From assembly GCF_000058485.1 (NCBI RefSeq), contig NC_008278.1, forward strand, positions 7,248,962 through 7,312,961: a stretch of 64,000 bases of DNA, read 5' to 3'. The position numbers and the translations under genes are program-made. Positions 5,832-59,819 of the stretch are shown one piece after another. The notes below the pieces were generated by a model. That model ran no database searches, had not been told where the DNA came from, and saw only the letters and a program-made list of their open reading frames with translations. This DNA is from Frankia alni ACN14a. Its GTDB lineage: Bacteria; Actinomycetota; Actinomycetes; Frankiales; Frankiaceae. How positions within the stretch are numbered: the first letter of the stretch is position 1; each line of letters opens with the position of its first letter.

Positions 5832-6045
5832 CACGCCGAATCCTGCCCCCGGCCGACGATTTCGCCAGACCGGGCGGCAGGAACGGGGGAACCATCTCCG
5901 AGCGTCGAAGGGATTCGATGCTCTCGGGGTGAAGCCATGAGCGACGGACGCACCAGGGTCTTTCGGTGCGACGCACGTCCCCAGGAATCCCTGGCATGGC
6001 CGGGCAGTTCCCAGCCCGAATCCGACAGCTCACCTCGCAGGCGTG
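5832..6045 (+). ncRNA. ydaO/yuaA-type c-di-AMP riboswitch
   Basis: The 3' end carries the strongly conserved ydaO signature, CCGAATCCGACAGCTCACC followed by TCGCAGGCG. Upstream are the other conserved pieces: cgccgaatcctgcc, gggggaacca and ggggtgaagcc. The outer P1 helix is visible: cacgcc (5832-5837) pairs with ggcgtg (6040-6045). In this class c-di-AMP normally turns expression off. The expression platform is just before the AAGG ribosome-binding region of the Rpf-like gene. In actinobacteria this riboswitch is known to precede cell-wall hydrolase genes. Confidence 0.92.
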
Positions 6046-6063
6046 GGGAAGGACCACAAACAT

Positions 6064-6744
6064 ATGTCCGACGCACGTACCAGTGGCCGACAATGGAGCG
6101 CCGGCACCCGCATCCGGGCGCGGGCCCTCATGGTTGCTCCGGTTCTCGCGGCGGCGGTCGGCGGCACTCTTGCCGTCAGCCAGCCGGCCGAGGCGGCCAG
6201 CACCTGGGCGGGTCTGCGGCAGTGCGAGTCCGGCGGTGATTACACGACCAACACCGGAAACGGCTACTACGGCGCCTTCCAGTTCTCGGCCAGCACCTGG
6301 CACAGTCTCGGCTACTCCGGTCTGCCACACGAGGCGGCCCCGGCGGTCCAGGACGAGGCCGCCCTCCGCCTCGCCCAGCGCTCCGGCTTCGGCCAGTGGC
6401 CGGTCTGCGGTCGCGGCATGGGCGCCGACCAGCTCGCGGGCGGCTCGTCGGCCAGCGGCGCGGCGCAGGCGTCGCGCTCGGCGACGCGGGCCCCGCTGAC
6501 CGCTCGTCCCGCCGCCTCCACCACCCCGAACTTCACCCGCAACCTCACGGCCGCGCTGGTCGGGCAGGACCGGGCCGACGTGCGCGCCTGGCAGACCCGG
6601 ATGAGCCAGCTCGGCTACCCGATCGCGGTGGACGGCCACTTCGGGCCACGTTCGGCCGCCGCCGCCCGCTCCTTCCAGGGAAGCCACGGTCTGGCCGTCG
6701 ACGGCATCGTCGGCCCGGCGACCTGGCACGCCACCTTCGGCTGA
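6064..6744 (+). CDS. Secreted Rpf-like transglycosylase with C-terminal peptidoglycan-binding domain
   Basis: Predicted exported cell-wall hydrolase of 226 residues. A basic N-terminus and hydrophobic core end in a likely signal-peptidase site at AEA-A (about residue 44). The Rpf-like fold follows immediately (WAGLRQCESGGDY), with catalytic Glu at residue 55, and runs to about residue 118. A linker leads to a PG_binding_1 domain at about 165-225 (LGYPIAVDGHFGPRS, VDGIVGPAT). Such enzymes cleave the glycan strand and help growth resumption from dormancy or spores. The ATG at 6064 is preferred because of GGAAGG about 10 bases upstream; the in-frame GTG at 6043 lies inside the riboswitch. Regulation by the c-di-AMP riboswitch just upstream is very likely. 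Confidence 0.92.
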   Translation: MSDARTSGRQWSAGTRIRARALMVAPVLAAAVGGTLAVSQPAEAASTWAGLRQCESGGDYTTNTGNGYYGAFQFSASTWHSLGYSGLPHEAAPAVQDEAALRLAQRSGFGQWPVCGRGMGADQLAGGSSASGAAQASRSATRAPLTARPAASTTPNFTRNLTAALVGQDRADVRAWQTRMSQLGYPIAVDGHFGPRSAAAARSFQGSHGLAVDGIVGPATWHATFG

Positions 6745-7174: not shown

Positions 7175-7396
7175 GACGCCGAGTCCTGCCCGACGTGCGA
7201 GCGGCTGGTCCTAGTACGCACCGCAACGGGCAGGAGTGGGGGACCCACCATCCGGGCGTCTCTGACGCCCTTGGGGTTAAGCAGGCTCGTCCCAGCCATC
7301 CGGTGTGGGGAGAACGTTTCCCACGCAGTACCGACGGCCAGGGGCGGACCGGCCGGGCCATCCCAGCCCGCACCCGACAGCTCACCCCGCAGGCGA
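7175..7396 (+). ncRNA. Second ydaO/yuaA-type c-di-AMP riboswitch
   Basis: Same architecture as the element at 5832: 5' cgccgagtcctgcccg, gggggacccacc, a ttggggttaagcag version of the GGGGUGAA segment, and the 3' signature CGCACCCGACAGCTCACC followed by CCGCAGGCG. The outer helix cgcc (7177-7180) with ggcg (7392-7395) is shorter than in the first copy. The peripheral helices differ in sequence from the first copy while the core is kept, as expected for a structured RNA under selection. Confidence 0.9.
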
Positions 7397-7412
7397 TCGG
7401 GATTGGACTGAC

Positions 7413-8135
7413 ATGCCGTCAGGACGGCGTGGTGGTAGACATCGGGCCCCGCAGGCCCACTCGACCGCGGGTCGCATCCTTCGCACCACCGGCGCGGTGA
7501 CGGCCATCGTCGGCAGCGGGCTCGCGGTCAGCACGGTCGCCGCGGCCCCGGCCGGCGCCGCGACCGCCGACGACTTCGCCAAGCTCCGCCAGTGCGAGTC
7601 CGGCGGGAACTACGCCACCAACACGGGCAACGGCTTCTCCGGCGGTTACCAGTTCGACGACCAGACCTGGCACGGCCTCGGCTACTCCGGCCGGCCTTAC
7701 CAGGCCTCCCCCGCCACCCAGGACGAGGCCGCCGCCAAGCTCTACAACGCGCGGGGATGGCAGCCCTGGCCGTCCTGCTCGCGCAAGATGGGCCTGACGA
7801 ACAACGGCCCGGCCGCGGTCGGCTCCGGTGACGTCATCGAGCAGGCCCTCGCCCCCGCCGAGCCGCCGATGACACTGGATCGCGCTCGCCAGGAGATGGG
7901 TGACAACTCCTACAAGGGCACCGTCCTCAACGCCGGTTACGGCAACGACGTCCGCCCGGACGCGTTCGTCTGGCAGGCCGCGATGCGCAACAAGAGCTTC
8001 CTGCTCACCGTCGACGGAAAGTTCGGTCCGCAGTCGCAGGGCATCGCCGCCCTCTACGGCTACCTGACCCGGGTCAGCGACGGCCAGCCCGGCGCCGTCG
8101 GCCAGAACCTGTGGAACGTCACCGTCCGGTCGTGA
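7413..8135 (+). CDS. Second secreted Rpf-like transglycosylase
   Basis: Protein of 240 residues related to the product of 6064-6744. A basic N-terminus, a hydrophobic segment (about 24-49, ending APAGAA) and an Rpf-like domain starting FAKLRQCESGGNY, with catalytic Glu at residue 62, make it a predicted exported muralytic enzyme. The C-terminal 65 residues retain VDGKFGPQS and look like a divergent peptidoglycan-binding domain. The ATG at 7413 is used; a longer frame from a GTG at 7305 would translate through the riboswitch and is rejected. It has its own promoter and riboswitch, so it is not a simple operon partner of the first copy. Confidence 0.92.
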   Translation: MPSGRRGGRHRAPQAHSTAGRILRTTGAVTAIVGSGLAVSTVAAAPAGAATADDFAKLRQCESGGNYATNTGNGFSGGYQFDDQTWHGLGYSGRPYQASPATQDEAAAKLYNARGWQPWPSCSRKMGLTNNGPAAVGSGDVIEQALAPAEPPMTLDRARQEMGDNSYKGTVLNAGYGNDVRPDAFVWQAAMRNKSFLLTVDGKFGPQSQGIAALYGYLTRVSDGQPGAVGQNLWNVTVRS

Positions 8136-56114: not shown

Positions 56115-56388
56115 TGTCACGGACTCCCTGGTCTGCAAGGTGGGTCGGCCCGCCGGCACCGACCGCCCGGGCACCGGGCGCGAGCGGCGGTCGCCGGACG
56201 CGGTCCGGCGTTCCCGGTGCCGGTGGACGTGCCCGGCCCCGGTGACCGTGCCCGGGGCGCCGAGGAACGTCGATGAACATTGTGGGGCCGCGGCGGGCCG
56301 CACCCGACGAAACACGATCTCATGAGCGTGAACCACGAAACACCGGTGCACGATCTCCGGCACTCGGTCTACAGTACGGACAGACAAC

Positions 56389-56512
56389 TTCATCTGGCTC
56401 ATCCAGAGGGGCAGAGGGAACGGCCCAGTGAAGCCCCGGCAACCACCCGCATCCGATGCGTGGCAGGTGCTAATTCCGACCCGTGGCAGGTTGCCCCGGG
56501 AAAGATGAGGAG
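56389..56512 (+). ncRNA. SAM-I (S-box) riboswitch
   Basis: The sequence carries the S-box core: gagggaacggccc, then agtgaagccccggcaacc, and ggtgctaattccgacc. The closing P1 helix pairs ttcatct (56389-56395) with agatgag (56503-56509). The 3' strand of P1 runs directly into the AGGAG ribosome-binding site (56508-56512) of the next gene, which suggests that SAM binding hides it and lowers translation. S-box RNAs normally control methionine, cysteine or SAM genes. Confidence 0.93.
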
Positions 56513-56519
56513 CTTCTTC

Positions 56520-57797
56520 ATGACTCTCGCGCCCGAGCGTGCCGACACTCCCGCCCTCGACGTCGCGAACCCCGCGGTCGGACTGTCCTGTCGCCACTGC
56601 GGCGCCACCTACCCCCTCTCCCCGTCCCACGTGTGCGTGGAGTGCTTCGCCCCGCTGGAGATCTCCTACGACCCCGACCTGCTCGGCCGGGTCACCCGGG
56701 AGTCCATCGAGCGTGGGCCGGCCAACCTGTGGCGCTACGTCGGCCTGCTGCCCGCGGGGCACGACCCGGCGCGCCGGGTGTCGCTCGGCGCCGGCTGGAC
56801 GCCGCTGCGCCCGGCCCCGCGCCTGGCCGCCGAGCTGGGGATGAAGACCCTCTACGTCAAGGACGACAGCGCCAACCCGACGCACTCGTTCAAGGACCGC
56901 GTCGTCTCGGTGGCGCTGAGCGCCGCCCGCGAGCTCGGCTTCACCACGGTGGCCTGCGCCTCGACCGGCAACCTCGCCCAGTCCGTGGCCGCGCACGCCG
57001 CCGGGGCCGGGCTGCGCTCGGTGGTGCTGGTGCCGCACGACCTGGAGGCCGGCAAGACCGTCTCCACCGGCGTGTACGGCGGGACCCTCGTCGCGATCCA
57101 GGGCAACTACGACGATGTCAACCGGCTGTGCAGCGAGCTGGCCGGCGAGTACGAGTGGGCGTTCGTCAACGTCAACGTCCGCCCGTTCTACGCCGAGGGC
57201 TCCAAGACGCTGGGTTACGAGGTCGCCGAGCAGCTCGGCTGGCGGCTTCCCGAGCAGGTCGTCGTGCCGATCGCGTCCGGCTCCCTGCTGACCAAGGTCG
57301 ACAAGGCGTTCGGCGAGCTCGGCAAGCTGGGCCTGGTGGAGCCGACGCCGTACCGGGTCTTCGGCGCGCAGGCCGCCGGCTGCAACCCGGTGGCCGCGGC
57401 GTTCGCCCGCGGGGTCGACACGGTTGCCCCGGTGCGACCGTCGACGATCGCCAAGTCGCTGTCCATCGGCAACCCGGCCGACGGCCCGTACGCCCTCGAC
57501 GTCGCCCGCCGCACCGGCGGTGCGATCACGGACGTCAGCGACGACGAGATCCTCGAGGGCATGCGGCTGCTGGCCCGTACCGAGGGCATCTTCGGCGAGA
57601 CCGCCGGCGGCGTCACGGTCGCGAACCTGCGCCGCCTGCTGCGCGAGGGTCTGCTCGACCCGGCCGCCGAGACCGTCATCTACAACACCGGCGACGGGCT
57701 GAAGACCCTCGACCCGCTGGTCGAGACCGGCGGCCCGACGGCCACCATCAAGCCGTCGCTGCGTGCCTTCGAGGCCGCCGGCCTCGGCGACGACTGA
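56520..57797 (+). CDS. Threonine-synthase-like PLP enzyme, possibly the O-phosphohomoserine-dependent homocysteine synthase (MetM type)
   Basis: PLP-dependent fold II enzyme of 425 residues. An N-terminal zinc-ribbon-like part has CRHC (24-27) and CVEC (39-42). The PLP Lys is Lys125 in NPTHSFKDR; CASTGNLAQS is the phosphate/carboxylate loop. By family it acts on O-phosphohomoserine, normally to make threonine. The SAM riboswitch in front, however, indicates methionine regulation. A related Streptomyces gene near groEL2 was reported, as I recall, to make homocysteine with a sulfur carrier protein. No such carrier gene is visible next to it here. The ATG at 56520 is fixed by AGGAG seven bases upstream. 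Confidence 0.88.
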   Translation: MTLAPERADTPALDVANPAVGLSCRHCGATYPLSPSHVCVECFAPLEISYDPDLLGRVTRESIERGPANLWRYVGLLPAGHDPARRVSLGAGWTPLRPAPRLAAELGMKTLYVKDDSANPTHSFKDRVVSVALSAARELGFTTVACASTGNLAQSVAAHAAGAGLRSVVLVPHDLEAGKTVSTGVYGGTLVAIQGNYDDVNRLCSELAGEYEWAFVNVNVRPFYAEGSKTLGYEVAEQLGWRLPEQVVVPIASGSLLTKVDKAFGELGKLGLVEPTPYRVFGAQAAGCNPVAAAFARGVDTVAPVRPSTIAKSLSIGNPADGPYALDVARRTGGAITDVSDDEILEGMRLLARTEGIFGETAGGVTVANLRRLLREGLLDPAAETVIYNTGDGLKTLDPLVETGGPTATIKPSLRAFEAAGLGDD

Positions 57798-57994
57798 CCC
57801 CGCCGGCCTCGGCGACACTGACCGCCCCGGCGCCCGGCGCCGATGCCGCGGCCTGTCGGCTGGCCGACACCGGGCCGGCAGCCGGCGCGTCGCGGCCCTG
57901 CCACGCGGCCTGACCGGGGGCGTCGCCGTGCCGCGCCCGGTCGCGCAGCGGGCCGTGGAGGCCGCGGTGCGCAACACGGAGAAGCGGCGGCGAG
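57798..57994. other. Region between the threonine-synthase-like gene and the CIRCE elements
   Basis: About 200 bases of Pro/Arg/Ala-coding-like GC-rich sequence with no supported gene. No ThiS/MoaD-like sulfur carrier (small protein ending Gly-Gly) was found here in any frame. Confidence 0.5.
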
Positions 57995-58021
57995 CTTGCA
58001 CTCTCCCATGCCGAGTGCTAA
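57995..58021 (+). promoter_or_regulatory. CIRCE operator 1 overlapping the likely groEL2 promoter
   Basis: cttgcactc-N9-gagtgctaa (57995-58003 and 58013-58021) matches the HrcA operator TTAGCACTC-N9-GAGTGCTAA in all but two bases of the left arm. Within it, TTGCAC (57996-58001) and TAAACA (58019-58024) are 17 bases apart and may be the promoter, so HrcA binding would block RNA polymerase. Confidence 0.92.
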
Positions 58022-58028
58022 ACAGGAC

Positions 58029-58055
58029 TTGGCACTCTCACCTAGGGAGTGCCAA
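58029..58055 (+). promoter_or_regulatory. CIRCE operator 2
   Basis: ttggcactc-N9-gagtgccaa (58029-58037 and 58047-58055) is a perfect inverted repeat with the CIRCE spacing; only the fourth base pair differs from the consensus. It starts eight bases after operator 1 and would be in the 5' untranslated RNA. Confidence 0.9.
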
Positions 58056-58061
58056 GGCTGA

Positions 58062-59819
<1,758 letters not shown>

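Follow-up and report, generated by a model that had tools for sequence, protein, structure and literature searches.

A metM-type gene with a SAM-I riboswitch and no adjacent metO in Frankia alni ACN14a, and CysO as its candidate sulfur carrier

The gene annotated as threonine synthase at 56520-57797 (+ strand, ATG start, 425 aa) of the window, the 64,000-nucleotide stretch of DNA from the plant-root bacterium Frankia alni ACN14a analyzed here, very probably encodes a methionine-pathway enzyme, namely a PLP fold-type-II homocysteine synthase candidate of the MetM type. We observed a SAM-I riboswitch immediately upstream of this gene, grouping of its product with MetM proteins in one clade, a separate ThrC-like gene elsewhere in the genome, the absence of metO beside it, and CysO as the sole MetO/CysO-type carrier of the genome. 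We are confident of the explanation as a whole: a MetM-type homocysteine synthase would be produced under SAM-I repression from a locus that has lost metO, and its sulfur would most likely come from CysO.

In the 2024 Streptomyces work of Hasebe et al., the sulfur donor is reportedly a dedicated carrier in thiocarboxylate form, MetO, which the next gene encodes. Passages of a 2025 paper (PMC12172450) credit the homocysteine synthase MetM, its carrier MetO, and the SAM riboswitch of S. albulus metM to that study. As these passages present it, MetM with an upstream SAM riboswitch is not new as such, having been first described in Streptomyces in 2024, and the riboswitch is no longer the added regulatory argument that an earlier reading of the DNA (the sequence-only reading) had made of it. 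What the present analysis adds is the existence of metM loci without metO that keep the riboswitch, with CysO as the carrier left in the Frankia genome. The open-access literature, mostly in the form of titles and abstract openings, yielded no work that we recognized on Frankia MetM, on CysO serving MetM, or on metO-less MetM.

The SAM-I leader in Frankia and its relatives

A cmscan covariance-model search identified a SAM-I (S-box) riboswitch aptamer at 56396-56511 on the + strand (RF00162; 78.3 bits, with the gathering threshold at 44.4 bits; E 1e-16; model positions 1-108 all covered), the 3' end of which lies 8 bases before the ATG at 56520. The sequence-only reading, which had placed such an element before a 'threonine synthase' within 56389-57797, was right about both the element and the range. 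A chance match was ruled out by the E value together with conservation upstream of metM in relatives. In the RF00162 model alignment, P1 pairs 56398-56403 with 56504-56509. The 3' strand of P1 falls in the stretch AGATGAGGAG (56504-56512, + strand) and overlaps the Shine-Dalgarno sequence; the latter, GAGGAG at 56507-56512, starts inside the P1 3' strand and is followed by a 7-base spacer to the ATG. Farther upstream, TACAGT at 56370-56375 (+ strand) is likely the -10 element of the metM promoter, judged from its sequence and position. No variation was seen in TACAGT, in AGATGAGGAG, or in the 5' strand of P1 among 18 aligned Frankiaceae leaders (18 of 30; the other 12 are 8 from one genus whose aptamers are enlarged or fit the model poorly, plus 4 more), and because P1 is invariant, these leaders provide no covariation evidence. 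In plain thermodynamic folding the aptamer did not stand out (MFE z-score 0.42), which lends no support; the evidence for the riboswitch is the covariance-model match and its conservation upstream of metM. A hairpin of the MFE fold in which the Shine-Dalgarno sequence pairs with the start codon was discarded, as by eye it is not kept among the Frankiaceae leaders.

The overlap between P1 and the Shine-Dalgarno sequence leads us to expect a switch that represses translation. At high SAM, P1 would form, the 5' half of the Shine-Dalgarno sequence would be hidden in the P1 3' strand, and translation would not take place; the expected direction is thus OFF, by translational repression. The leader resembles SAM-I riboswitches with the ribosome-binding site in P1, as described in part of PMC2258182: here GAGGAG overlaps the 3' strand of P1, 7 bases before the ATG, and nothing notably different was found in the comparison. 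Regulation of thrC by T-boxes in Bacillota, which appears in a portion of PMC12452182, was also considered and is not relevant to Frankia metM.

The genome searched is a single contig of 7,497,934 bases, and it contains a single SAM-I at E up to 1. No SAM riboswitch reached the gathering score around the metB/CGL-like gene, metY-metX, a third Cys/Met-family gene, hom-thrC-thrB, or mec-cysO-cysM. SAM-I preceded metM in all 29 Frankiaceae loci sampled (20/20 and 9/9), which represent 29 of the 34 other genomes of the family, 5 lying outside the sample. It was likewise present in 20/20 other named loci without metO (20 of the 27 metO-less loci outside Frankia), and among 11 further non-Frankiaceae loci it was found in 6 and not in 5.

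We also surveyed 296 sampled Actinomycetota genomes, 110 of which carry a MetM-type protein (identity to the window protein of 50% or more; three further matches of 35-37% identity fall outside these counts). In this set, a SAM-I was found no more than 500 bases upstream of metM in at least 66 of the 110 cases. A SAM-I occurs anywhere in the genome in 91/110 MetM genomes versus 67/186 others, and none was detected at E 0.001 in 19 of the 110. SAM-I is not tied to MetM alone, as at least 23 of 113 MetX genomes have one no more than 500 bases upstream of metX (rows picked by hand).

Several observations on riboswitches stand apart from this pattern. In one Frankiaceae genus, the SAM-I aptamer at L177 (- strand, about 3090-2787) has a large insert and spans about 300 bases by eye, and in L176, L181, and L186 of the same genus the aptamer fits are 150, 188, and 242 bases long (scores 44.7-63.3 bits). 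Genomes G022, G048, G092, and G103 of family f16 have MetM-type genes with no SAM-I in the genome (E 0.001) and no carrier within 1 kb, and are a third arrangement of metM. Two c-di-AMP riboswitches were also detected in the window, at 5853-6056 (54.9 bits) and 7209-7410 (38.9 bits, threshold 38). They run into the listed starts of the ORFs at 6043-6744 and 7305-8135, respectively, both of which look by eye, from their translations, like Rpf-type secreted transglycosylases.

Separation of MetM from threonine synthase

The window protein matches Pfam PALP and scores above the cut-off of the NCBIfam model TIGR00260 'threonine synthase' (270.9 bits against 167.1 bits). The other ThrC-like gene of the genome is also above this cut-off (303.6 bits), and since both Frankia genes pass, the model cannot separate MetM from ThrC. 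NF006050 was rejected as a discriminator because both proteins were scored below its cut-off. The second gene, 38% identical to the window protein, is located in the order lysA-hom-thrC-thrB (ThrC was named by TIGR00260; lysA, hom, and thrB by reading their translations) and is presumed to be the true threonine synthase. Thus, a second thrC beside hom and thrB, which the sequence-only reading had proposed to search for, is present; it takes the thrC place there, and the window gene sits outside hom-thrC-thrB. A separate ThrC-like gene, 36-42% identical to MetM, was found in 35/35 Frankiaceae genomes.

We built a FastTree tree of 139 rows, comprising 131 MetM proteins, 4 Frankiaceae ThrC, and 4 other ThrC-like proteins with Cys-rich N-termini. 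The 131 MetM rows, including the window protein, formed a single clade (support 100) that long branches separate from both other groups, which sets the window protein apart from true ThrC; the tool warned that among the deepest rows of this tree long branches meet. The Streptomyces rows were called MetM by locus order, the characterised S. albulus sequence being outside the tree. The window protein is 60-64% identical to Streptomyces proteins of metM-metO loci and, after rounding, 100% identical to MetM of Frankia torreyi CpI1. The alignment has 41 columns in which almost all MetM rows share a residue that is absent from every ThrC row; 28 of these are in the catalytic part, 11 are N-terminal (where at most one of the four ThrC rows is comparable), and 2 are gapped in ThrC.

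The loop N219-x-R221-x-x-Y224-x-x-x-S228 (57174-57203, + strand) has the counterpart S-x-N-x-x-R-x-x-x-Q in ThrC. N219 was found in 130/131 MetM rows and R221, Y224, and S228 in 131/131, and the S, N, R, and Q residues in 4/4 ThrC rows. These four positions align with S155, N157, R160, and Q164 of Thermus ThrC (1uim), among which we take S155 and R160 to be phosphate contacts. K125 of the SFKDR motif (56892-56894, + strand) aligned with SFKDR of solved ThrC chains and was invariant in both protein alignments; as expected for this fold, it is presumably the PLP Schiff-base lysine. The histidine in the lysine loop (PTHSFKDR) was discarded as a MetM marker, as different MetM proteins have H, N, F, W, or G there. 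The zinc-ribbon-like Cys4 N-terminus that had been noticed earlier (C24, C27, C39, and C42; 56589-56645, + strand) was present in 131/131 MetM rows and absent from the genome's own ThrC, and its sequence suggests that it may bind zinc. It was also rejected as a marker, because the 4 other ThrC-like rows carry 3 or 4 of the cysteines. In summary, the window protein resembles ThrC (1uim, 2zsj, 6cgq, and 2d1f) in its PLP fold type II, its SFKDR lysine, and presumably its substrate, but differs in the Cys4 N-terminus, the change of the loop from S/N/R/Q to N/R/Y/S, the SAM riboswitch, and the location outside hom-thrC-thrB. The clade, the separate thrC, and the riboswitch support the methionine-pathway reading proposed earlier; neither of the sequence-based outcomes that it had named as refuting it, a genome with no second thrC and grouping with true ThrC, occurred. 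Homocysteine synthase activity of Frankia MetM is predicted from sequence.

The Frankia genome also encodes MetX (NF001209, 416 bits) adjoining MetY (NF005872, 810 bits) and, elsewhere, a metB/CGL-like gene. As metX-metY is present, homocysteine is probably also made in the usual way, and MetM is not obviously essential and looks redundant in Frankia. MetX was found in 31/110 MetM genomes versus 82/186 other genomes; MetM has likely replaced MetX in part, and the Frankia genome keeps both.

Absence of metO and the carriers that remain

In relatives, metO was directly downstream of metM in 26/29 loci, and a listed carrier was within 600 bases of metM in at least 77 of the 110 MetM genomes. Most named Streptomyces loci have the order metM-metO-groEL with an S-box core upstream, which bears out what the sequence-only reading had said of a Streptomyces MetM near groEL. 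In the window, groEL is indeed nearby (start 58198). The interval between metM and groEL (57798-58197, + strand), where metO is located in Streptomyces and others, contains no carrier gene: tblastn with MetO and CysO and a carrier profile found none beside metM, in agreement with the earlier reading. A PF02597 search of the genome detected ThiS-family genes only away from metM. Two inverted repeats of the form GCACTC-N9-GAGTGC precede groEL (57998-58018 and 58032-58052; 0.02 expected by chance). We take these to be CIRCE-like, and groEL is therefore probably HrcA-controlled.

The same absence was seen beside metM in the 29 Frankiaceae loci (best tblastn E above 0.3; no profile match at E up to 1), which include two short downstream stretches of 365 and 33 bases, the 33-base one being undecidable. 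A diverged metO hidden behind metM was rejected, as a profile of 8 carriers was empty at E up to 1 in the window, in 48 metO-less loci of the tree, and in the 29 Frankiaceae loci; both controls, MetO of L040 and CysO of L014, were recovered. Among 129 decidable MetM rows of the tree, 81 have a carrier within 1 kb of metM and 48 do not, and metO presence requires 10 state changes, at least 7 of them forced by starred branches. Of 80 named loci, 51 have metO and 29 lack it (in one of these the available sequence ends 14 bases after metM), the latter including loci of Micromonospora, Actinoplanes, Blastococcus, Modestobacter, Glycomyces, and Lentzea. Frankia thus shares with the Streptomyces MetM/MetO system the clade, the Cys4 N-terminus, the upstream SAM riboswitch, and the downstream groEL, whereas, compared with S. 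albulus, it has no adjacent metO, only a CysO-clade carrier, and metX-metY in addition.

CysO, encoded in mec-cysO-cysM, was the only MetO/CysO-type carrier detected by profile in the Frankia genome at E 1e-8 and is about 50% identical to a MetO. The expectation that a carrier would have to come from elsewhere in the genome therefore held in that CysO is the best candidate, but it is not an orphan gene, being inside mec-cysO-cysM. A carrier of this type was present in 109/110 MetM genomes versus 67/186 others (odds ratio 194, with kinship ignored), and the single MetM genome without one (G248) has a partial MetM. All 12 phylum-set genomes with a metO-less metM locus (11 relatives and Frankia) carry such a carrier elsewhere. 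MetM and a MetO/CysO-type carrier were found together in 35/35 Frankiaceae genomes, 27 of which have a single carrier and 8 have more, mostly distant copies. In 30 of these genomes, the carrier is upstream of CysM in 30/30 and has Mec upstream in 29/30, the last being at a contig end. In the carrier tree, one branch parts 47 CysO-labelled rows from 26 MetO-labelled rows (89/94; 99% of 200 bootstrap trees); the tree has few columns and the labels were assigned by locus, with a CysM match near 46 of the 47 CysO rows (not L200). The 30 Frankiaceae rows all fall with CysO, and since CysO and MetO form separate clades, CysO may not fit MetM.

Frankia CysO (L014:5743-6063; genome 1604742-1605062) has 13 residues after its Gly-Gly end, and across Frankiaceae such tails range from none to about 30 residues; the JAMM protease Mec may cut them. 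The other ThiS-family genes over the PF02597 cut-off in the genome encode ThiS and a MoaD-like protein. The latter (genome 1004892-1005128, L016) ends in AGG, and its gene lies, by eye, near look-alikes of mshD, a response regulator, a thioredoxin, and CysA/SseC-type sulfurtransferases. At L204 (G297:C1:2193356-2193622), a ThiS/MetO-like domain ending in AGG continues in frame, by eye, into a cytochrome P450-like protein (505 aa read); such a carrier-P450 fusion would be unusual.

Sulfur source, alternative readings, and meaning

In the mechanism we propose, MetM would act on O-phosphohomoserine, which Hom and ThrB produce and which the separate ThrC of the genome also uses, and would swap the phosphate on the gamma carbon for sulfur, yielding homocysteine. 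With metO gone from the locus in Frankia and in several actinobacterial groups, CysO of mec-cysO-cysM would supply the sulfur; on the genomic evidence, we consider CysO somewhat more probable than not as the donor of Frankia MetM. According to sections of PMC3227635, in mycobacteria MoeZR makes the CysO thiocarboxylate and Mec releases cysteine from CysO. Frankia has the same mec-cysO-cysM genes; in the system of those sections CysM acts on O-phosphoserine, whereas MetM would be a second CysO user, and Frankia CysO differs in having a tail after GG. By analogy with cysteine release, Mec could free homocysteine from the carrier. A broader arrangement, to which we give a little less than even credence, is that CysO feeds CysM and MetM at two branch points and Mec frees both products, in Frankiaceae and recurrently in metO-less actinobacteria, with the SAM-I of metM as the only SAM-I valve.

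Other sulfur sources have to be weighed against CysO. MetM might use free sulfide or persulfide with O-phosphohomoserine and need no carrier, which would account for the repeated loss of metO. The 48 of 129 decidable rows without metO beside metM, the 10 state changes (at least 7 forced), the lack of any carrier by profile in 48/48 metO-less loci at E up to 1, and the distinct clades of CysO and MetO all agree with this possibility. However, it does not account for why 109/110 MetM genomes retain a CysO/MetO-type carrier or for the carriers found elsewhere in 12/12 phylum-set genomes with a metO-less locus, and we regard it as rather unlikely. A donor role for the MoaD-like protein (genome 1004892) or ThiS appears less probable still. 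Both belong to the ThiS family by PF02597, and look-alikes of a CysA-type sulfurtransferase and SseC are near the MoaD-like gene by eye; yet the MetO/CysO profile picked up neither at E 1e-8, and ThiS, named by TIGR01683, adjoins a thiE-like gene by eye.

A different view of the enzyme itself is that the window gene encodes a second threonine synthase, or a combined threonine synthase/deaminase, controlled by SAM to balance the use of O-phosphohomoserine. Its TIGR00260 score above the cut-off fits this view, as do activities reported for a Microcystis homologue. Passages of PMC12172450 describe this homologue, which is 51.6% identical to S. albulus MetM and has a carrier next to it but no riboswitch. 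It reportedly acted in vitro as both a threonine synthase and a threonine deaminase, methionine was not seen to rise, and the authors question whether it fills the whole role of MetM under the conditions they used. The separate ThrC-like gene in 35/35 Frankiaceae genomes, the conserved SAM-I upstream of metM, the changed loop residues in the MetM rows, and the coupling of MetM to carrier genes argue against a second threonine synthase, which we consider the least probable of these alternatives.

The 110 of 296 sampled actinobacterial genomes that carry a MetM-type protein point to wide misannotation, as the family model TIGR00260 labels this kind of protein threonine synthase; of the MetM-type proteins, the model was run on the window protein only. 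The finding also extends the Streptomyces result to a rule about carriers that can be tested. Should CysO not be shared, MetM would be carrier-free, and the chemistry proposed for it would have to be revised. Should CysO serve both enzymes, the pathways to cysteine and to methionine would compete for a single carrier, and a SAM sensor would sit at one of the two exits.
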